Part shown: one piece after another, positions 7,287-19,628 of the stretch
Layout of the letters: every line of letters starts with the position of its first letter
Position numbering within the stretch: the stretch's first letter is position 1
Source: a bacterium 336/3
Lineage (GTDB): Bacteria; Bacteroidota; Bacteroidia; Cytophagales; Thermonemataceae
Reading direction: 5' to 3'
Assembly (NCBI GenBank): GCA_001281695.1
Contig: LJIE01000001.1
Coordinates: 874,107-938,106 of the forward strand
Length of the DNA stretch: 64,000 nt
Translations under genes and position numbers: made by a program
The notes under the pieces: model-generated
Seen by the model: only the letters and a program-made list of their open reading frames with translations
Databases searched by the model: none
Told to the model about the DNA's origin: nothing

Positions 7287-7676
7287 ATACTATCCATACA
7301 GATAAATTTAAAAGAAATGGATTCTATATGACAAAAAAATATCATATAGAATCTTGTATCTTTGAGAAATTAATCATACTTTTCATAGAGCTTCTTATTA
7401 TTTCCTTATACTTAATATAGGTGATTTCCATCTTAATTTTTATTGTTTAGAAACAGAAAAATTAAAACACTTTTGATTTTTAAATAATACTAATCACCAA
7501 TACTTAAGCATCTTAAATCTCTGAAAAATAATTTTACCGAGAAATAAACTTATTTCATCGAGTATAGTGTATATATTAATGAATAACCAATATAGGTTAT
7601 TTATTTTTAAATTATTATTGTATTCTCAAACAATGCCTTTTTGATACTTTTTAAACTTCAAAACAAACCAAAATTT
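7287..7676 (+). promoter_or_regulatory. Structured intergenic leader before the giant adhesin gene
   Basis: A 390-bp stretch without a gene. It holds four signals. A perfect 12-bp inverted repeat has arms GATTCTATATGA (7320-7331) and TCATATAGAATC (7342-7353). A -7-like element TATCTTTG lies at 7357-7364, only three bases after that repeat, but with no good TTTG at -33. An imperfect long-range inverted repeat pairs CTTAATATAGGTGATTT (7411-7427) with a region near 7490-7507. A perfect 7-bp hairpin lies at 7582-7601 (AATAACC, loop AATATA, GGTTATT). If 7357 is the promoter, the mRNA leader is about 300 bases and structured. Confidence 0.5.
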
Positions 7677-10600
7677 ATGATGGTGAAGACTACGCCTCAA
7701 AAATGGTTATCAAAATTCAAAAAAACACTAATATTTATAAGTGTTTTTTGGCTTATATCTTTGATATCCTTTGCCCAAGAAACTAACTGTACTGATGGAA
7801 TCGACAATGATAATGACAATCTAATAGATTGTCAAGACCCAGATTGTCCCAGTTGCGACCCTTCTTTAGAGTGTACAGCTCCCTATACTTATTACATGCC
7901 TCCGATTTTTGGAGATAGAGTAAGTTATAACTGTAATTATTATGGTACAGAAGACTTGGTAATCTCTACTTTAGGAAGAGCTACAACAGTAACAATAAAA
8001 GCCCCTAATGGAACAATTTTACAAACAGTCAATATTCCTATTGCTAATCCTGTAAATATCCCTATTGATGGAGTCTCTATACCTATTACTCAAATTATGA
8101 GTAATAACCCTTCTTTAAACACAGTACAAAGTAATAAAGGTTTAATTATTGAGGCTGACCAACCCCTACAAGCAACTTACAGATTGCTTTCAAGGGCTGG
8201 CTGTGCTACAAACAACCAAGATTTATTGCAATTACAAGGAAGAGCTGCATTAGGTCGTTCTTTTTATGCAGCCAGCCAAACAGATATGACAAATTCAACG
8301 GGTCACCATCAAGAAAGACATTTTGTATCTGTGATGGCAACCCAAAATAATACACAAGTTACATTTTATGTACCTCCTACATTTAGATTATTTGATAATA
8401 CAGTTGTAAATATGGCTCTCTCTGATGGCTCAGAAAATACAACATCTGCTCTTGCATTACCAGCAAGCAGAGAAGTAACAGTTACACTCAATGCTGGACA
8501 GAGCTATATGATAGCTACTTTAGATGAAAGAATGAGTGTTACAGGTGTTCGTATAACTTCTGATAAAGATATTGTTGTAAACAGTGGCTCACAACATACC
8601 AACACTACTCAAGGTGGTGATTCAGATGCGGGATTTCATCAAATTGTACCTACACAAGCATTAGAAACAAACTATATAGCTCTAGATGGTGGAAATGTAA
8701 ATAATGTAAAAGATTATTTAGTTATCATTTCAGTAGAAAATAACACAACTTTTACTGTAAATGGTGTTTCTGGCGGTACAGATGGTAGAGGCAGAGCAGT
8801 TCCTACAACATTGAATGCAGGTCAGTATTTTACATACTATTTTGATGATATTCAATATAAAGCTTACAATTTACAAGCATCCAATCGTTTGTACGTTTAT
8901 CATGCAAGTACTTATGGTACAAGTGAATTTGGTATGGATATTTTACCACCAATCAGTACTTGTATAGGTAGTAAACAGTTAGATTTTGAACGTCCAGGAA
9001 CAACCAGTTCAGCTTTTGTAATTGTTCCTACATCAGGCCTTTCTACACTTAGGTTTAGAAATCAGCCCTATACAGTATTTGCAGCAAATATAGACCCTGA
9101 TGGTGGAGGAGCTCTTCCTGCTGCTCAGGCAAATACAATTGGTACATCAGGTTATTCGTATGTTGTATTTTTAGATGCTAATATTTCAGCTATTGGTGTT
9201 AATAATAGGGTTACTTGTAACGAAAAGTTTCACTTAGGAGTAAACTCTCGTACAGGAGGGACAGGAAATTATGCTTTTTATTCTAATTATGAGAAAACCA
9301 TAGAAGTTTTAGATCCAGTAACTCTCCAACCAACAAACGGATACCAAGCAGGAGAAGTGGATCCTGGTGTTCCCATTACACATTGTCTTTTGGTAACAGG
9401 TTGCGGTTCTAATAATACCATTACTGGAGCAACAGCAAGTGGTTATGCAGGTGCTGGTACTGAAGGAACAGTAACAATTTCTGGTACTTGTGTAACTTAC
9501 ACAATGCAACCAGGAGCTCCTTCTTGTGCAAGAGAAACTGTAACTGTAAGCGTTCAAAATGAGTTTGGTATTACGAGTCAGGTGTGTTTACGTTTCGAGA
9601 ATAGAACCAAACCATTTACAGTAGGAACACCAACACCTACAAATCCTTTTATTTGTACAGTTGGTTTACCTAATTCGGTAAGTGTAAGTGTTCCTGTTAC
9701 AGTACCAAGTGGCTCACCCACATTTACATGGGTCAATCCTAATGGGGTAACCATTGCCTCTACCAATACAGGTTCAAACCCTAATTTTACTACCACCATT
9801 ACTGCAAATATTGCAGGAACTTACATACTTACTGTTACAGTTGGTACTTGTAGTCAAAGTGTCAACTTTGTTGTTTCTGCTAGAAACTGTAACGATGCAG
9901 ATGGTGATGGGATTAATGATACTGTAGATATAGATGATGATAATGATGGTATTATTGATGCAGATGAAGGAACAGGAGATAATGATGGTGATGGAGTGGC
10001 CAATAACTTAGACTTGGATAGTGATAATGATGGTATTCCTGATGTAATTGAAGCAGGTGGTGTAGATGCAGATGGTAATGGAATTGTAGATGGAGCAACA
10101 AGTGCTACAGTTGGGCCAAATGGCTTGTTTGATCCTCTTGATAATTTAGGTTTAGGTAATCCTGATTCAGATGGTGATGGCATTGCCAATATTTTTGACT
10201 TGGATGCTGACAATGATGGCATTCCTGATGTAATAGAAGCAGGGGGAGTAGATGTTAATAATGATGGACTTGCAGATAATTATACAGATGCAAACGCCAA
10301 TGGTTTTATAGACTTATATGATTCTAATGCAGGTGCATCTGGTACACCTATCACAGCTACTGGTCCTGATGGTAATAATGATGGAAGGCCTAGCTCTTAT
10401 CCACTAGATAATCCTGATGGAGATGGCAGACCTAATTACCTTGATATTGACTCAGATAATGATGGTATTATAGATTTTGTTGAATCAGGATTGCCTGATG
10501 CTAACAATGATGGAAGACCAGATGGAGCAACAGGATCAGATGGTTGGAGTGATGTAGTGGATGCTCTAGTGTCATTAAATCTCTTAAATTCTGATTTTTC

Positions 10601-13600
10601 AGGTTTACCCAACTATTTGGATATAGACGCTGATAATGATGGAATTGTAGATAATGTGGAAGGTCAGAGTACAGCAGGCTATATTGCTCCAACAGGAACA
10701 GACTCTGATAATGATGGTTTAGATAATGCTTATGACAATGATGATGCTGTATTTGGTGGAAATGTCAATAATGGTATTACACCAGTAAATACAGATGGAG
10801 CAGATGTAGCAGACTATATTGATTTAGATACAGATAATGATGGAAGTTTTGATTTGGTGGAAGGTCATGATAGTGATGGAAATGGAGTAGCAGATACAGG
10901 TTCACCAGCGGATAGTGGAATAGGAGGATTAACAGACTCAGATGGAGATGGTTTATTAGATGGATTTGATAACAATGATGCTTCATGGAATCCAACCAAT
11001 GGAACAACACCAACAAATTATCCAGATGTGATTACAGTGGGAGGAGATAGAGATTGGAGACAAATTAGAGATCATGATGGAGATGGCATACCTGATTTAG
11101 TGGATTTGGATGATGATAATGATGGTATCACTGATTTGAATGAAAGTGGAGGAGTAGATCCATTAGCAGATGCAGATGGAGATGGAATACCAAACTACAT
11201 AGATACAACACCAGGAGTGGGTGTACCAGCTTTTGTGGACACAGATAGCGATGGAATAAATGATGCTTATGACCAAGATCAAGATGGTGTAATTGATGCT
11301 TATGATTTAGATTCAGATAATGATGGTATTAGTGATGTGAGTGAATCAGGAGGTAGTGATCCAGATGGAAATGGAATAGCAGGCACAGGAGTACCCACAG
11401 TAAATGCTCAAGGTCTTGTGTTGATATTAGGTGTACCTGTAAACAATCCAAATGTGGATAGTGATGGAGATGGAGTACCCAATAGTCAAGATTTAGACTC
11501 AGATAATGATGGAATTAGTGATGTTGCTGAAAATGGCAATGGAGCTTTAGATGCCAACAATGATGGTATTGTAGATGGTAGTGATACAGATGGAGATGGA
11601 ATTATCAACAATGCAGCTATTGACAACAACAGCACAATTGGAGGAAACTTTGCAGCCCCAGCCAATGCAGATGGAGATGGTAGACCTAACTATTTGGATT
11701 TAGATTCAGATAATGATGGAATTAGTGATGTTGCTGAAAATGGCAATGGAGCTTTAGATGCTAATAATGATGGTATTGTGGATGGAACAGACTCTGATGG
11801 AGATGGAATTATCAACAATACAGCTATTGACAACAACAGCACAATTGGAGGTAACTTTACAGCCCCAGCCAATGCAGATGGAGATACTAGACCTAACTAT
11901 TTGGATTTAGATTCAGATAATGATGGAATTAGTGATGTTGCTGAAAATGGCAATGGAGCTTTAGATGCTAATAATGATGGTATTGTGGATGGAACAGACT
12001 CTGATGGAGATGGAATTATCAACAATACAGCTATTGACAACAACAGCACAATTGGAGGTAACTTTACAGCCCCAGCCAATGCAGATGGAGATGGCAGACC
12101 TAACTATTTGGATATTGATTCAGATAATGATGGAATTACAGATATTGATGAGACAAATCCAGCCTTAGATGCCAACAATGATGGTATTGTAGATGGAACA
12201 GACTCTGATGGAGATGGAATCATCAACAATGCAACTATTGATAATAACAGTACAGTTGGAGGAAATTTCCCTACTGCACCCAATACAGATTCAAATGGTC
12301 TGCCTAACTATTTAGATATAGATGCTGATAATGATGGAATTGTAGATAATGTGGAAGGTCAGAGTACAGCAGGCTATATTGCTCCAACAGGAACAGATAC
12401 AGATGGAGATGGCTTAGACAATGCTTATGATGCTATTGTAGGTATAGGAGGAGCAGGCATTACACCAGTAAATACAGATGGAGTGGATAATCCTGATTAT
12501 ACAGATTTAAACTCAGATAATGATGCCTTAACAGATTTAATAGAAGGTCATGATAGTGATGGAAATGGAGTAGCAGATGCAGGTTCACCAGCGGATAGTG
12601 GAATAGGAGGATCAACAGATACAGATGGAGATGGTTTATTAGATGGATTTGATAACAATGATGCTTCATGGAATCCAACCAATGGAACAACACCAACAAG
12701 TTATCCAGATGTGATTACAGTGGGAGGAGATAGAGATTGGAGACAAGTCCCTCTAGCGAATTTGGGAGTAACCAAAGTGGCAAGTAACAATACCCCAGCA
12801 GTTGGAAGTAACATTACTTTCACAATTACAGCTAACAATGCAGGTCCAAGTAATGCAACAGGAGTGGTAATCAATGATGTATTACCTGCTGGTTACACAT
12901 TTGTATCATCTACTCCATCAGTTGGCACTTATAACAGTGGAACAGGAGTTTGGACAATTGGAAACTTAGCAAATGGAGCTTCTGCAACATTAGATATAGT
13001 AGTGACAGTGAATGCAACAGGTAGTTATGCTAATACAGCAACAATTTCGGGTAATGAAACAGACCCAACACCTGGAAATAATACTTCTACCTCTACTCCA
13101 GTACCAGTTCCACAAGCGAATTTAGGAGTAACCAAAGTAGCAAGTAATAATACTCCAGCAGTTGGAAGTAATATTACTTTCACGATTACAGCTAACAATG
13201 CAGGTCCAAGTAATGCAACAGGAGTGGTAATTAATGATGTATTACCTGCTGGTTATACATTTGTATCATCTACTCCATCAGTTGGCACTTATAACAATGG
13301 AACAGGAGTTTGGACAATTGGAAACTTAGCCAATGGAGCTTCTGCAACATTAGATATAGTAGTGACAGTGAATGCAACAGGTAGTTATGCTAATACAGCA
13401 ACAATTTCGGGTAATGAAACAGACCCAACACCTGGAAACAATACTTCTACTTCTACTCCAGTACCAGCTCCACAAGCGAATTTGGGAGTGACCAAAGTAG
13501 CAAGTAACAATACTCCAGCAGTTGGAAGTAACATTACTTTCACCATTACAGCCAGCAATGCAGGTCCAAGTAATGCAACAGGAGTGGTAATTAATGATGT

Positions 13601-16379
13601 ATTACCTGCTGGTTACACATTTGTATCATCTACTCCATCAGTTGGCACTTATAACAATGGAACAGGAGTTTGGACAATTGGAAACTTAGCAAATGGAGCT
13701 TCTGCAACATTAGATATAGTAGTGACAGTGAATGCAACAGGTAGTTATGCTAATACAGCAACAATTTCGGGTAATGAAACAGACCCAACACCTGGAAACA
13801 ATACTTCTACCTCTACTCCAGTACCAGCTCCACAAGCGAATTTAGGAGTAACCAAAGTAGCAAGTAACAATACCCCAGCAGTTGGAAGTAACATTACTTT
13901 CACAATTACAGCTAACAATGCAGGTCCAAGTAATGCAACAGGAGTGGTAATCAATGATGTATTACCTGCTGGTTACACATTTGTATCATCTACTCCATCA
14001 GTTGGCACTTATAACAGTGGAACAGGAGTTTGGACAATTGGAAACTTAGCAAATGGAGCTTCTGCAACATTAGATATAGTAGTGACAGTGAATGCAACAG
14101 GTAGTTATGCTAATACAGCAACAATTTCGGGTAATGAAACAGACCCAACACCTGGAAATAATACTTCTACCTCTACTCCAGTACCAGTTCCACAAGCGAA
14201 TTTAGGAGTAACCAAAGTGGCAAGTAACAATACCCCAGCAGTTGGAAGTAATATTACTTTCACGATTACAGCTAACAATGCAGGTCCAAGTAATGCAACA
14301 GGAGTGGTAATTAATGATGTATTACCTGCTGGTTATACATTTGTATCATCTACTCCATCAGTTGGCACTTATAACAATGGAACAGGAGTTTGGACAATTG
14401 GAAACTTAGCCAATGGAGCTTCTGCAACATTAGATATAGTAGTGACAGTGAATGTAACAGGTAGTTATGCTAACACAGCAACAATTTCGGGTAATGAAAC
14501 AGACCCAACACCTGGAAACAATACTTCTACTGCTACTCCAGTACCAGCTCCACAAGCGAATTTGGGAGTGACCAAAGTAGCAAGTAACAATACCCCAGCA
14601 GTTGGAAGTAACATTACTTTCACAATTACAGCTAACAATGCAGGTCCAAGTAATGCAACAGGAGTGGTAATCAATGATGTATTACCTGCTGGTTACACAT
14701 TTGTATCATCTACTCCATCAGTTGGCACTTATAACAGTGGAACAGGAGTTTGGACAATTGGAAACTTAGCAAATGGAGCTTCTGCAACATTAGATATAGT
14801 AGTGACAGTGAATGCAACAGGTAGTTATGCTAATACAGCAACAATTTCGGGTAATGAAACAGACCCAACACCTGGAAATAATACTTCTACCTCTACTCCA
14901 GTACCAGTTCCACAAGCGAATTTAGGAGTAACCAAAGTGGCAAGTAACAATACTCCAGCAGTTGGAAGTAACATTACTTTCACGATTACAGCTAACAATG
15001 CAGGTCCAAGTAATGCAACAGGAGTGGTAATTAATGATGTATTACCAGCTGGCTATACATTTGTATCTTCAACACCATCAGTTGGCACTTATAACAGTGG
15101 AACAGGAGTTTGGACAATTGGAAACTTAGCCAATGGAGCTTCTGCAACATTAGATATAGTAGTGACAGTGAATGCAACAGGAAGTTATGCTAATACAGCA
15201 ACAATTTCGGGTAATGAAACAGACCCAACACCTGGAAACAATACTTCTACCTCTACTCCAGTACCAGTTAATCTTGCACCTACTGCTAACAATGATACCA
15301 ATGGAACATCTCTAAATACACCAGTAAGTGGTGGAGTAAGTGGCAATGATGTGTTACCTGCTGGTGGAACATATACCTTCACAGTAACAACACCTCCTAA
15401 CCCTGCTCAAGGAACAGTAGTGATGAACCCTGATGGGACTTATACTTTCACTCCAGCAACAGGTTTTGTAGGTACTACAACATTTGTTTATCAAGTATGT
15501 AATCAGTTTGGACAGTGTAGTTCAGCAACTGTAACTATCACTATAGGACAACCTCCTTTAGCTGTAAATGATACATACAATACAGGTGCAGGCATACCTG
15601 TAAATGGAAATGTTGGAACAAATGACCAGAATACAAGTGGTGGAACATTTACATTGGTAAGTGGTGGTACAGCAACACAAAATGGTACATTAGTATTGAA
15701 CCCTAATGGTACATTTACTTTCACACCAAACAATGGTTTTGTAGGAACAGTGACATTTGTTTATCAGATATGTAATCCAATGGGATGTTCACAAGCAACT
15801 GTAACAATTAATGTAGCTCCTCTAGTAGTAGCTGTTGATGATAACTACACAATAGGTGTAAATAATCCTATTACAGATTCTTTATCAATAAATGACATAC
15901 TTCCTATTGGTTCAGTTCCTGTATTTAGCCTTGTAAATGGCGGTACAGCAGCCGATAATGGTACATTGGTTATAAACCCTAATGGTACATTTACATTCAC
16001 ACCAAATAATGGTTTTGTGGGTACAGTAACATTCACATACCAAGTATGTAATCAGTTTGGACAGTGTAGTACGGCAACTGTAACTATCAATATTATTGAA
16101 CCAACAGTGATTATTCCTGAAGGATTTTCTCCTAATAATGATGGTACAAACGATTTCTTTATCATCAAAGGTAGAAATGGAAGACCATTAGTCTTGAAAA
16201 TCTATAATCGTTGGGGTAATTTGGTGTATGAAAATAACAATTATGAAGATAATTGGAATGGAACAGCTAATATAGGTATCCGTATAGGTGACCAACTTCC
16301 TGATGGCACATATTTTTATACAGCTGAATTCAAGGATAATGGTGAACGTTATGCACGTTATCTAACTATCAAACGTTAA
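7677..16379 (+). CDS. Giant T9SS type-B secreted adhesin (SprB-like) with IgGFc-binding, calcium-rich and tandem repeat domains
   Basis: Secreted surface protein of 2900 residues. It starts at ATG 7677; the frame opens at a TTG 7641, but the signal peptide (Lys-rich start, hydrophobic core, cleavage after SFA) fits the ATG. Order: a Cys-rich DGIDNDND segment; an IgGFc-binding-type domain (about 50-430); Ig-like modules (about 530-740); a long Asp-rich run of thrombospondin-3-like DxDxDG calcium repeats (about 740-1690) with internal duplications; seven 120-residue DUF11-like repeats (about 1694-2533); three Ig/cadherin-like repeats of the [12 protein letters not shown] type (to about 2815). 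It ends in a gliding-motility-associated type-B sorting domain ([33 protein letters not shown]). By family it should be exported by the T9SS and held on the surface. The following SprF-like gene is the usual dedicated partner of type-B substrates. Confidence 0.92.
10606..12750 (+). repeat. Duplicated 450-bp block in the calcium-binding region
   Basis: The block at about 10606-11064 (from [19 protein letters not shown] to VGGDRDWRQ) recurs at about 12304-12750 with long stretches of identical DNA. Both copies contain [11 protein letters not shown] and [14 protein letters not shown]. The copies flank the 207-bp tandem repeats, so the middle of the calcium-binding region looks built by segmental duplication. 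Confidence 0.75.
11490..12314 (+). repeat. Four tandem 207-bp repeats (69 residues each)
   Basis: Units begin at 11490, 11697, 11904 and 12111, each opening with an LDSDNDGI-type calcium loop and containing [10 protein letters not shown] and GDGIINN. Units 2 and 3 are almost identical in DNA. The last unit is 204 bp and more diverged. All lie in frame within the adhesin. Confidence 0.85.
12756..15275 (+). repeat. Seven tandem 360-bp DUF11-like repeats, no indels
   Basis: Units start with GCGAAT at 12756, 13116, 13476, 13836, 14196, 14556 and 14916, exactly 360 bp apart. Marker variants show a higher-order pattern. Units 1, 4 and 6 share CAGTGGA, GCAAATGG and the CCAGTTCC tail. Units 2 and 5 share CAATGGA and GCCAATGG. 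Unit 3 has its own CCAGCAATG. Unit 7 has silent changes (CCAGCTGGC). The array thus grew by copying multi-unit segments. Confidence 0.93.
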
Positions 16380-16446: not shown

Positions 16447-17376
16447 ATGAAAAAGATTCAAAATATTGTTTTAGGGTTTTTGATGTTATCAAGTTTGATA
16501 GCATCTGCCCAACAAGATGCGATGTTTTCGCAGTATATGTTCAATCCAATTGCTGTAAACCCTGCTTATGTAGGTAGTAATGAAGCACTTACATTTACAG
16601 GTTTATTTAGAAGCCAATGGGTAGGTATTAAAGGAGCTCCTAATACAGGTACATTTTCGATAGATGCACCTTTTAGAGGTGAAAAAATGGGAGTAGGTCT
16701 GAATTTAGTTGCAGATAGAATAGGGATTATAAGTACTATTGGTGCTTTTGGTTCTTATGCTTATCGCATCAAAACTTCTGAAAAGGGTAGATTGGCTTTA
16801 GGTTTACAAGTTGGATTTAGCCAGTATACAGCAGATTTGCAAGGAGTAAATTTAGGAGACCCTAATGACCCAGCTTTTTCCAATAATATCAACCATTTAC
16901 AACCCAATGTAGGTGTAGGAACATGGTATAATACAGATAGACTTTTTGTAGGAGTTTCTATTCCTCATTTGATAAATAATTCACTTACAGATGAGTATCA
17001 ATTTTTAAATGATACAAATGGAGCGAGACAGTACAGACATTATTTCATTACAGCAGGTTATGCTTTTGATTTGAAAGAAGACTTGGTATTGAAACCCTCT
17101 GTTTTATTTAAAGGAGTAGGAGGAGCACCTTTACAAGTAGATTTGAATGCAACATTATGGTATTTAGATAGATTTGGAGTGGGAGCTTCTTGGCGTTCAT
17201 TTAGTTCTGCCAATATTCTGGTAGGATATAAAATCAATGAACAATTGAGTGCTGGTTATGCCTATGATTTTTCTACGACAGACCTACAAAAATACAATAG
17301 TGGTAGTCATGAATTGATGTTGCGTTATCAGTTAAAATCTGATAAAACTAAAATTATCACTCCAAGATTCTTTTAA
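16447..17376 (+). CDS. PorP/SprF family T9SS outer-membrane protein
   Basis: Outer-membrane beta-barrel protein of 309 residues with a Sec signal peptide (cleavage after SAQ) and the family start QQDAMFSQYMFNPIAVNPAYVGS. Aromatic alternating strands follow through the length (for example FRSQWVGIKGAPNTGTFSIDAPF). In Flavobacterium, SprF is needed for export or surface attachment of the adhesin SprB, and PorP/SprF paralogues are each coded next to their type-B substrate. This gene sits 67 bases after the adhesin and 2 bases before the OmpA gene, so the three form one functional unit. Confidence 0.92.
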   Translation: MKKIQNIVLGFLMLSSLIASAQQDAMFSQYMFNPIAVNPAYVGSNEALTFTGLFRSQWVGIKGAPNTGTFSIDAPFRGEKMGVGLNLVADRIGIISTIGAFGSYAYRIKTSEKGRLALGLQVGFSQYTADLQGVNLGDPNDPAFSNNINHLQPNVGVGTWYNTDRLFVGVSIPHLINNSLTDEYQFLNDTNGARQYRHYFITAGYAFDLKEDLVLKPSVLFKGVGGAPLQVDLNATLWYLDRFGVGASWRSFSSANILVGYKINEQLSAGYAYDFSTTDLQKYNSGSHELMLRYQLKSDKTKIITPRFF

Positions 17377-17378
17377 GC

Positions 17379-19628
17379 ATGAAAAAGATATTTATTATAG
17401 TAGCATTCTTTCCCATACTGGTGTATGGTCAAAGTCTCAAGAAGAAAGTAGCAGACAAAGATTTCTCAAGTTTTCATTATGTTGAAGCTATCAAACATTA
17501 TGAAAGTCTTGTGGCTAAAAATCCTGAAGATGCAGACTCTGAAGAAAAATTGGCAGAAAGCTATCGCCAAATTAACGATACCAAAAATGCTGAAAAATGG
17601 TATGGTAAAGTAGCTCAAAGAGCAGGTTCTAAACCTATTGCCAAACTTTATTATGCAGAATCTCTTGCCAATGAAAAGAAATATGAGGAAGCAAAAGTAT
17701 GGTATGCTAAATATGCTCAGGAAATGGCAAGTGATAGCAGAGGCAATAACTTTGTAAATTTCTATACTAAGGAAATGAGTAGTTTAGAGAAAAGTGCAAA
17801 TGATTATAGTATTGAAAAAGCAACTTTCAATTCTGAAACTGGCTCTGATTTTAGCCCTGCTTTTATGGGAGATAAAATTGTTTTTTGCTCAAATCGCCAT
17901 TCTACAAGCAATGGTATCAGAAAAGATGAGTTTAAGTGGACGAAAACCTCTTTTTTAGATTTGTATGTAGTAGATGCAAATGGCAATGTAGAAGTTTTTA
18001 ACAAAAAACTTAATAGTCGTTATCATGAAGGACCTGTAGCTTTTTTTCAAGGAAATAACAAGGTTGTTTTTACTCGTAACAATTATTTTGAAGGTAAATA
18101 CAAAGAAAGTTCTGAAGGAGTAAATAAATTAAAAATGTTTTTTGCAGAAAAAACTGAAAATGGTTCTTGGGGCAATGTAGTTCCTTTTCCATATAATAGT
18201 GATGAATATAGTGTTGGGCATCCTACACTTTCGCCAGATGGACAAACACTTTATTTCGCTTCTGATATGCCTGGTGGTTTAGGAGAGACAGATATTTATA
18301 TGTCTAAACTCGAAAATGGTGTTTGGGGAAAACCTGTAAATATGGGTAAGGGTATCAATACAGAAGGTAAAGAAGAATTTCCTTTTATGGATGGTAAAGG
18401 ACATTTGTTTTTCTCTTCAACAGGATACGGAGGTTTTGGAGGTTTAGATATTTTCTTTGCTGAGAATGTAAATGGACAATTTGAGAAACCTACTAATGTA
18501 GGTTTGCCACTCAACTCTTCTCAAGATGATTTTGGTATTATTGTAGATGAAACAGGAATGGCAGGCTATCTTTCATCTGATAGAGCTAGTGCTGCTGCTC
18601 AAGATGATATTTACAAATTTTCAGGAAAACCTTTTGGTAATTTTATTACGCTCAAAGCAATTACGATTCATGCTGAAACTAAGAATCCAATTCCAATGGC
18701 TAATGTAGATATTAGTGTTGAAGAGGTGGTTAGTAGCAGTGTTTCAGGGGAAAATGGAATGGTAGAAGGTAAATTTAACAGAACAAAAACTTATAGCTTT
18801 GTTGTGAAAAAAGAAGGTTTTGAAGAAAAAAGAATGACTTTGACACCCGAGCAACTTAAGACTTATAAAAATGGAGATTTGATAGAGATTCCTCTTGTTC
18901 CAATTCCTCAGAATATGCCTGTTGTGGTAATTTTGGATGAAGAAACTCGAGAGCCTGTTGCATCACACTTACTAATAGTAGATAAAACCAAAAAAGCAGT
19001 TTTTGAGCAGAAGGAAGTCAGTAAAACGACTGTAGAAAAGATAGGAAATGGAAAGTTTGACTTGAATGTAACTGCAAAAGGGTATTTCTTCAAGAATGAC
19101 ACCATGAGCATTGTAGATAATAAGAAAAAAACAGAAAAAATTGTTTTGCTTAAAAGATTAAAGAAAAATATGGTTTTGGTAGTAAACAATATCAATTTCG
19201 AGTTTAATTCTGATAAACTGACTCTACAATCCAAAAAAGAAGTAGATTATATCTACGAATTGATGAAGGAAAATCCGAGTTTAAAAATAGGTGTGTATGC
19301 TCACACGGATGCTGTAGGTACAGATGCTAAAAACTTAGACTTATCAAATCGAAGAGCAAAATCTGTTTATAGCTATATCAATTCTAAAGGAATACCCATT
19401 GAAAGAATGAAATGGCAAGGTTTTGGGGAAAGTAAACCCATAGAAACCAATAATACTAAAGAAGGTAGAGCTAAAAATAGAAGGGTAGAATTTGAAGTAT
19501 TGGAAGTAGAAGGTGTAGAAATTAAAGATAAATATGATTCTAATAAAGGAATAAAAGACGATAAGTTTGATGAGAAAAAAGCTTCGGAAGAAGAAAGAAA
19601 GAAAAAAGAGAAAGAAGGGAAACCTTAA
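17379..19628 (+). CDS. PorE-like OmpA-family protein with TPR, PD40 and carboxypeptidase-regulatory domains
   Basis: Exported protein of 749 residues. Order: signal peptide (to YGQ, about residue 18); TPR-like helices (about 25-130); WD40/PD40 beta-propeller strands (about 150-410, with LSPDGQTLYFASD and GETDIYMSK); a carboxypeptidase-regulatory Ig-like module (about 425-590); a C-terminal OmpA peptidoglycan-binding domain (about 600-715, INFEFNSDKLTLQS, AHTDAVGTDAKNLDLSNRRA and NRRVEFEV). A Lys/Glu-rich tail follows. This is the architecture of PorE and its paralogues, which anchor T9SS components to peptidoglycan. It starts 2 bases after the sprF-like stop and ends in a strong terminator. 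Confidence 0.9.
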   Translation: MKKIFIIVAFFPILVYGQSLKKKVADKDFSSFHYVEAIKHYESLVAKNPEDADSEEKLAESYRQINDTKNAEKWYGKVAQRAGSKPIAKLYYAESLANEKKYEEAKVWYAKYAQEMASDSRGNNFVNFYTKEMSSLEKSANDYSIEKATFNSETGSDFSPAFMGDKIVFCSNRHSTSNGIRKDEFKWTKTSFLDLYVVDANGNVEVFNKKLNSRYHEGPVAFFQGNNKVVFTRNNYFEGKYKESSEGVNKLKMFFAEKTENGSWGNVVPFPYNSDEYSVGHPTLSPDGQTLYFASDMPGGLGETDIYMSKLENGVWGKPVNMGKGINTEGKEEFPFMDGKGHLFFSSTGYGGFGGLDIFFAENVNGQFEKPTNVGLPLNSSQDDFGIIVDETGMAGYLSSDRASAAAQDDIYKFSGKPFGNFITLKAITIHAETKNPIPMANVDISVEEVVSSSVSGENGMVEGKFNRTKTYSFVVKKEGFEEKRMTLTPEQLKTYKNGDLIEIPLVPIPQNMPVVVILDEETREPVASHLLIVDKTKKAVFEQKEVSKTTVEKIGNGKFDLNVTAKGYFFKNDTMSIVDNKKKTEKIVLLKRLKKNMVLVVNNINFEFNSDKLTLQSKKEVDYIYELMKENPSLKIGVYAHTDAVGTDAKNLDLSNRRAKSVYSYINSKGIPIERMKWQGFGESKPIETNNTKEGRAKNRRVEFEVLEVEGVEIKDKYDSNKGIKDDKFDEKKASEEERKKKEKEGKP

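Follow-up and report, generated by a model that had tools for sequence, protein, structure and literature searches.

Seven near-identical DUF11 (CLIPPER) domains as the probable self-recombining stalk of a type IX-secreted surface protein in bacterium 336/3

Introduction

Surface proteins with a stalk of near-identical domains are a well-known bacterial kind. In the genome of bacterium 336/3 (Bacteroidota; Thermonemataceae), a giant open reading frame (ORF) carries seven consecutive 360-bp repeats, raising the question of what such an array builds, how its units came to be so similar, and whether recombination or selection keeps them so. We address these questions in a stretch of 64,000 nucleotides, here called the window (contig LJIE01000001.1 of assembly GCA_001281695.1, positions 874,107 to 938,106), and in relatives and comparator arrays from other species. 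Periscope Proteins, as they are characterized in the portions of PMC8201768 and PMC9704523 used here, consist of an N-terminal functional domain, a stalk of highly identical folded domains encoded by DNA that is itself highly identical, and a C-terminal anchor; intragenic recombination has been proposed to change their length, and variation among strains is a defining feature. We propose that the array is probably the stalk of a fixed, periscope-type adhesin secreted by the type IX secretion system (T9SS), made of isopeptide-locked domains and recombining with itself.

Results

Structure of the array and of the protein that carries it

Positions 12756 to 15275 comprise seven units of exactly 360 bp each, in frame with the ORF at 7641 to 16379. 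Tandem Repeats Finder (TRF) independently called 12755 to 15269 with a period of 360, 7.0 copies, and 96% matches, and the repeats reported in a preliminary description of the locus are thereby confirmed. Only the final ~6 bases of unit 7 deviate from the pattern, because the next domain starts there. DNA identity between units is 96 to 99%, and seven in-frame copies at that level cannot be chance. Over the first 352 bases, there are 2 pairwise differences among units 1, 4, and 6 and 6 between units 2 and 5, while unit 3 differs from the others at 7 to 15 positions and unit 7 at 11 to 15; the type labels A-B-C-A-B-A-D, and with them the earlier grouping of 1/4/6 and 2/5, are therefore correct. 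The same bases contain 24 variable columns, 20 synonymous and 4 changing a single residue, as the preliminary description had said of the markers. The silent fraction (83%) far exceeds the 26% of possible changes that are expected to be silent (P = 8e-9).

Table 1. Features of the giant surface protein gene and the two genes that follow it (window coordinates).
Feature	Positions	Strand	Basis
Giant surface protein ORF, 2912 aa from TTG	7641..16379	+	ORF list and translation
N-terminal IgGFc_binding (PF17517), candidate distal head, residues 190-518 from 7677	8244..9230	+	Pfam, E 4.2e-29
Asp-rich DxDxDG repeat region	9891..12755	+	Translation, by eye
Further tandem array within the Asp-rich region (period 207 bp, 4.1 copies)	11490..12341	+	TRF
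Unit 1, type A, DUF11/CLIPPER	12756..13115	+	Unit cutting, profile match, pairwise differences
Unit 2, type B, DUF11/CLIPPER	13116..13475	+	Unit cutting, profile match, pairwise differences
Unit 3, type C, DUF11/CLIPPER	13476..13835	+	Unit cutting, profile match, pairwise differences
Unit 4, type A, DUF11/CLIPPER	13836..14195	+	Unit cutting, profile match, pairwise differences
Unit 5, type B, DUF11/CLIPPER	14196..14555	+	Unit cutting, profile match, pairwise differences
Unit 6, a mosaic: type A, but type C at columns 9 and 15	14556..14915	+	Same as units 1-5
Unit 7, type D, DUF11/CLIPPER; next domain takes up the final ~6 bases	14916..15275	+	Same as units 1-5
Three Big_9/cadherin-like domains, approximate limits	15276..16109	+	Pfam Big_9, best residues 2724-2817; outer limits by eye
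CHU_C/TIGR04131 type B C-terminal type IX secretion signal	16110..16376	+	PF13585 and TIGR04131
PorP/SprF family outer-membrane carrier, no cysteine	16447..17376	+	PF11751, E 9.8e-84; TIGR03519, E 8e-87
PorE-like protein: TPR-like, PD40, C-terminal OmpA domain	17379..19628	+	Pfam; NF052230

The likelier start of the giant protein is an ATG at 7677 or 7680, followed by a signal-peptide-like stretch (start and signal peptide were both judged by eye). A Pfam scan of the whole protein returned seven DUF11 domains, three Big_9 domains, and a C-terminal CHU_C domain (PF13585; E = 1e-22, residues 2824 to 2910), and the NCBIfam model TIGR04131 scored 50.4 bits against a cut-off of 35, reaching residue 2912. 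That scan listed 14 families, and SprB repeats (PF13573) were not one of them. The IgGFc_binding match came from the N-terminal part scanned alone and is absent from the whole-protein listing. Side matches within the array, such as those to Chlam_OMP6, WH1, and Adap_comp_sub, were dropped; no single stretch passed alone.

By eye, the Asp-rich region resembles thrombospondin type 3/calcium-binding repeats; Pfam gave no real match there, and one irrelevant match fell below the cut-off. The closest two copies of its 207-bp array are 98.6% identical, and their array has a pN/pS of 0.19 (3 pairs), above that of the DUF11 array. Two pairs of segments about 1.69 kb apart (10598-10736 with 12293-12431, and 10846-11072 with 12529-12755) are 87% and 91% identical, which we read as an older, larger duplication within the same gene.

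Together, the match of the head domain and the T9SS signal point to a secreted surface protein with an adhesin-like architecture, in support of the earlier assignment; its putative adhesive role is suggested by domain name and position. The layout runs from the IgGFc_binding domain, the candidate head, through the Asp-rich repeats, the seven DUF11/CLIPPER domains, and three Big_9 domains to the type B signal.

A predicted isopeptide lock in each unit

Each of the seven units matched the DUF11 profile at 135 to 136 bits (cut-off, 24.6). DUF11 has been renamed CLIPPER, and crystal structure 9IFR shows an isopeptide bond involving Lys 715, Asp 748, and Asn 806 (PMC12617251, in the portion drawn on here). 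The candidate equivalents K7, D41, and N93 are present in all seven units, and in an alignment of 30 rows the lysine is found in 27, the aspartate in 29, and the asparagine in 28. In a profile search against the PDB, 9IFR was the sole match at E 0.01, with the K and D columns aligned; the aligned stretch of 9IFR stops before the asparagine, whose equivalence rests on the family pattern. The K-to-D spacing is 34 in the window units and in the 9IFR alignment, versus 33 by the numbering given in that portion of PMC12617251. A phmmer search of the PDB with one unit gave 19 matches, all to armadillo-type or importin chains; with 9IFR as the only hit of the profile search, we attributed them to compositional noise.

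AlphaFold2 modeled units 2 and 3 as a repeated pair of all-beta domains, each with nine strands (pLDDT, 96; pTM, 0.79). Integrin alpha chains ranked first when this model was submitted to Foldseek, and 9IFR was absent among the best 50 matches listed. We postulate that an Asp41-catalyzed isopeptide bond between Lys7 and Asn93 would close in each of the seven domains, and that such predicted locks would make the array a stiff, protease-resistant rod.

Probable exchange of sequence between units

Eleven columns of the array are informative with two states, and all four combinations of states occur in 24 of their 55 pairs. Trees simulated free of exchange gave a mean of 1.0 and a maximum of 21 such failures of the four-gamete test, and none of the 5,000 runs reached 24. 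With gamma-distributed rates (shape down to 0.3, two kinds of tree), P ranged from 0.0007 to 0.006 by count and from 0.0009 to 0.025 by fraction. Failures thus lie far above those of tree-only simulations, and the units have very probably exchanged sequence, as the claim of recombination in the preliminary description had it. A PHI-like test for agreement between neighboring sites within the unit was not significant (P = 0.30), which limits statements about tract length.

The longest exact stretch shared within the array is 383 bp and runs from unit 4 into 5 and from unit 6 into 7, and a 359-bp stretch is common to the passages from unit 1 into 2, 4 into 5, and 6 into 7. Exact matches of 359 to 383 bp correspond to one unit plus a small part of the next. 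Unit 6 bears the markers of unit 3 at columns 9 and 15 and then those of type A, so it is a join. It may have arisen as an A-B-C block whose last unit was overwritten later or by conversion of a single unit, and both readings fit.

It had been claimed that blocks of two to three units were copied as a whole. We enumerated all 5,040 orders of the seven units: the best two-unit block was equalled by 27% of orders, and the lag-3 value was matched or beaten by 4.4%, or by 12.5% when lags 2 to 4 were all allowed. Block periodicity was tested in these three ways, and none establishes it. The unit labels stand, but their order is weaker as a higher-order period. It fits copying of an A-B or A-B-C block, yet the longest exact match is 383 bp; these results leave the block-copying claim possible but do not establish it. 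Nor does "recent" apply throughout. It fits units 1, 4, and 6 (dS, 0.02) but not units 2 and 5 (0.04) or the other pairs (0.055 to 0.18), and the copying of type A alone looks very recent.

In unit 7 (14916-15275), five of the six private changes, all silent, fall within 28 bp (columns 132 to 159; chance, ~0.001). This cluster could be a conversion tract from another donor or old divergence spared by homogenization. Searching the 336/3 genome for a donor at the DNA level (12 of 29 candidates scored) brought up nothing besides the seven units themselves. One other DUF11 match is present in the genome (contig C5), and it was rejected as the donor, being much weaker (64.7 bits versus 135 to 136 for the array units in the profile search); no donor was found.

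Relatives, comparators, and the length of the stalk

A syntenic gene in a genome of the same genus (G002) encodes a protein of 2,243 aa with 3 DUF11, 13 Big_9, and a CHU_C domain, compared with 7 DUF11 and 3 Big_9 here. The downstream PorP and PorE-like proteins are 69% and 75% identical to those of the window, and no similarity to the N terminus of the window protein was found at the N terminus of the G002 protein. The window units share 65 to 68% DNA identity with the three DUF11 units of G002, of which units 2 and 3 are 93% alike; compared with 96 to 99% within the window, this implies that the array was homogenized within its own lineage.

PorP was found at an identity of at least 54% in 5 of the 7 relatives checked. 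In 4 of these 5 (G001, G004, G005, and G007), the adhesin ORF leaves the contig inside the stalk, and only that of G002 is whole; long repeats break the contigs of draft assemblies, and unit counts are blocked in those four genomes. A PorE-like protein comes next in G001, G002, G004, and G007, each time under the family cut-off, while the G005 contig ends earlier. The C-terminal domain in the 147-residue end from G004 was recognized by eye. The N-terminal region of the window protein is 63% identical in G004, which belongs to another genus, and 43% identical in G050; the N-terminal part from G004 matches IgGFc_binding at E = 8.4e-33. In G050, a distant relative, the locus at L114 7843-19206 has 36 SprB repeats instead of DUF11, a different stalk that apparently bears a related head. 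IgGFc_binding was absent from the Pfam listing of this 3,787-aa protein, which was scanned whole. In the family-level relatives examined here, carrier genes are conserved and stalk modules differ, which suggests that what evolves, within an otherwise fixed kit for export and anchoring, is the length and composition of the stalk.

For comparison, we assembled 19 hand-picked arrays, 2 from the window and 17 from 37 candidate rows (an array was present in 24 of 84 loci). The 17 comparators, built of various domains, have 3 to 24 units. Best-lag permutation P values fell below 0.05 (uncorrected) in 7 of the 19 arrays, none of which passes Bonferroni correction, and in 4 of the 7 the best lag was above 1 (L009, L014, the first L061 array, and L064, likewise uncorrected). 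In the same comparison, the 360-bp array of the window gave P = 0.108 with six of its seven units used. Units 1 and 6 of an Aquimarina litoralis array (L014, 1231-5036) share 93% identity, compared with 68 to 77% between either of them and the remaining units, and its units 2 and 7 share 95%. The corresponding pairs in Pedobacter punctiformis (L009, 9998-19028) are identical (1 and 6) and 97% alike (2 and 7). Block copying at an offset of five units is clearer in these two arrays than in that of the window.

An alternative hypothesis is that gene conversion alone homogenized the array while copy number stayed fixed, with no periscope-like change of length. Conversion could give shared tracts of about one unit, and both the mosaic unit 6 and the silent cluster in unit 7 could be obtained in that way. 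Against it, copy number changes at least between species, as the DUF11 and Big_9 counts within the genus show, and unit number differs widely across the comparator arrays. We consider this alternative unlikely, though it deserves weight. It is plausible that stalk length can change between strains; with one genome per species, the difference is seen only between species.

Export and anchoring

Three observations mark the giant protein as a type B T9SS substrate: CHU_C and TIGR04131 score over their cut-offs, a PorP-like gene adjoins, and the genome encodes SprA of the T9SS translocon. The genome has 17 CHU_C matches (over cut-off, 15) and 9 PorP/SprF matches; 6 of these 9 were inspected for a Cys-X-Cys tail, and 2 of the 6 end in a fused OmpA-like part. 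The PorE-like protein scored 306 bits against NF052230 (PorE), under the cut-off of 600. PorP-like carriers hold type B proteins, and the authors of PMC9143113 postulate, in the portion considered here, that non-mobile type B proteins are also tied to the wall via PorP-PorE-like complexes. In 336/3, the C terminus of the giant protein would be held at the outer membrane by the PorP-like protein and tied to peptidoglycan by the PorE-like one, giving a fixed adhesin.

A second adhesin-PorP pair is found in the genome at L177 1232-5779 (G000 contig C1, 1155731-1160278), where a 1,194-aa protein has six Big_9 domains and CHU_C. The PorP of this pair is 51% identical to that of the window, and no PorE-like gene directly follows it.

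The giant protein could instead be an SprB-like gliding adhesin that travels on a GldJ/GldK track. The type B signal, the adjoining PorP/SprF gene, and SprA are compatible with such a role, as are GldJ-like sequences in the genome, which were scored in pieces that each fell under the GldJ cut-off (two adjoining GldJ-like genes of this kind lie at 486183-489240 of G000 contig C1). SprF, however, requires a C-terminal Cys-X-Cys for gliding, according to the cited portion of PMC12635249, whereas the PorP of the window has zero cysteines and the tails of five family orthologues are similar and likewise lack cysteine. The PorE-like gene next to it is, moreover, the mark postulated for non-mobile type B proteins. 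Because its PorP has no cysteine, the adhesin is probably static rather than gliding, and we regard the gliding alternative as improbable.

Assembly and the origin of the units

Assemblies are known to be at risk from near-identical repeats (PMC6868369, in the part used here), and the broken adhesin ORFs of 4 of the 5 relatives with a close PorP illustrate this risk, so the number or order of units might be an artefact. The window lies within a 4.11-Mb contig of an assembly of 13 contigs that is 99.3% complete, units 2, 3, 5, and 7 have private markers, the frame is kept throughout, and the variable sites are largely silent, unlike random errors. An artefact is accordingly very improbable. Plain successive tandem duplication with no later exchange, for which the PHI-like result and a tree that can be drawn with moderate supports might speak, is already largely refuted by the 24 of 55 site pairs in conflict with one tree (at most 0.6% of simulations by count and 2.5% by fraction) and is hardly credible.

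Selection on the units

Units 1 and 7 differ by 13 silent and 0 replacement changes. Among pairs of at least 85% identity, pooled pN/pS is 0.060 in the DUF11 array and 0.065 to 0.34 in ten comparator arrays from other species; 12 of the 19 arrays entered this calculation. The comparators also have low values, and purifying selection is therefore not peculiar to the DUF11 array. The near-identity of the unit proteins is partly due to selection, but a low pN/pS would result both from selection that keeps the copies alike and from ordinary constraint acting on every copy, and alone it cannot tell the two apart.

Discussion

We favor a scheme in which the repeat DNA recombines with itself by unequal crossing-over, gene conversion, or both, in tracts of about one unit. 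Recombination would homogenize the units and create mosaics such as unit 6, and it should add or remove whole 120-residue domains with the frame intact. Purifying selection would act in addition, leaving proteins almost identical while silent sites differ by up to a dS of 0.18. The array would be a clean case in which silent markers record recombination inside a single adhesin gene.

We tentatively extend this scheme to a bolder proposal, which we think unlikely as a whole: within-array recombination sets the length of a T9SS-exported, wall-fixed periscope stalk and makes its mosaics, and strong selection at the protein level keeps isopeptide-locked neighbors identical. If this is true, the identity of the domains is itself selected and not a mere by-product of recombination. 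That would run against the usual rule that neighboring domains diverge to avoid misfolding, and identical neighbors could be tolerated thanks to the covalent lock inside each domain.

The closest parallel is with Periscope Proteins, again as described in the portions of PMC8201768 and PMC9704523 drawn on here. The 336/3 protein resembles them in its seven 120-aa units of 96 to 99% DNA identity within a surface protein that bears a T9SS signal. Its N-terminal IgGFc_binding match, for which ligand binding is putative, and its C-terminal type B signal may correspond to the functional domain and the anchor of the class. It differs in that export and anchoring would be by T9SS and in that divergence is greater at silent sites than in the protein; repeat number in Periscope Proteins varies by strain, whereas our comparison, at one genome per species, is of 3 versus 7 units between species. 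The present reading would extend the periscope concept to a stalk of isopeptide-type domains that is secreted by the type IX system, and in the open-licence PMC literature we found, among the matches listed, no paper on T9SS-exported DUF11 periscope stalks.

At the level of the domain, the units resemble the CLIPPER domain (DUF11, PF01345) of 9IFR, as portrayed in the cited portion of PMC12617251, in family match, in the Lys/Asp/Asn triad of all seven units, and in their tandem stalk position in an adhesin-like protein; here, unlike there, seven copies are 96 to 99% identical in DNA and the bond is predicted. With SprB-SprF of Flavobacterium johnsoniae, the locus shares a giant repetitive type B T9SS substrate beside a PorP-like carrier, but it has no SprB repeats, its carrier is without the Cys-X-Cys tail, and a PorE-like gene is present. 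PorE-PorP-PG1035 of Porphyromonas gingivalis, in the account given in the cited portion of PMC9143113, likewise joins a type B protein to PorP-like and PorE-like partners; in 336/3, the partners are suggested by three adjoining genes, one of which encodes the substrate, a giant protein built of repeats.
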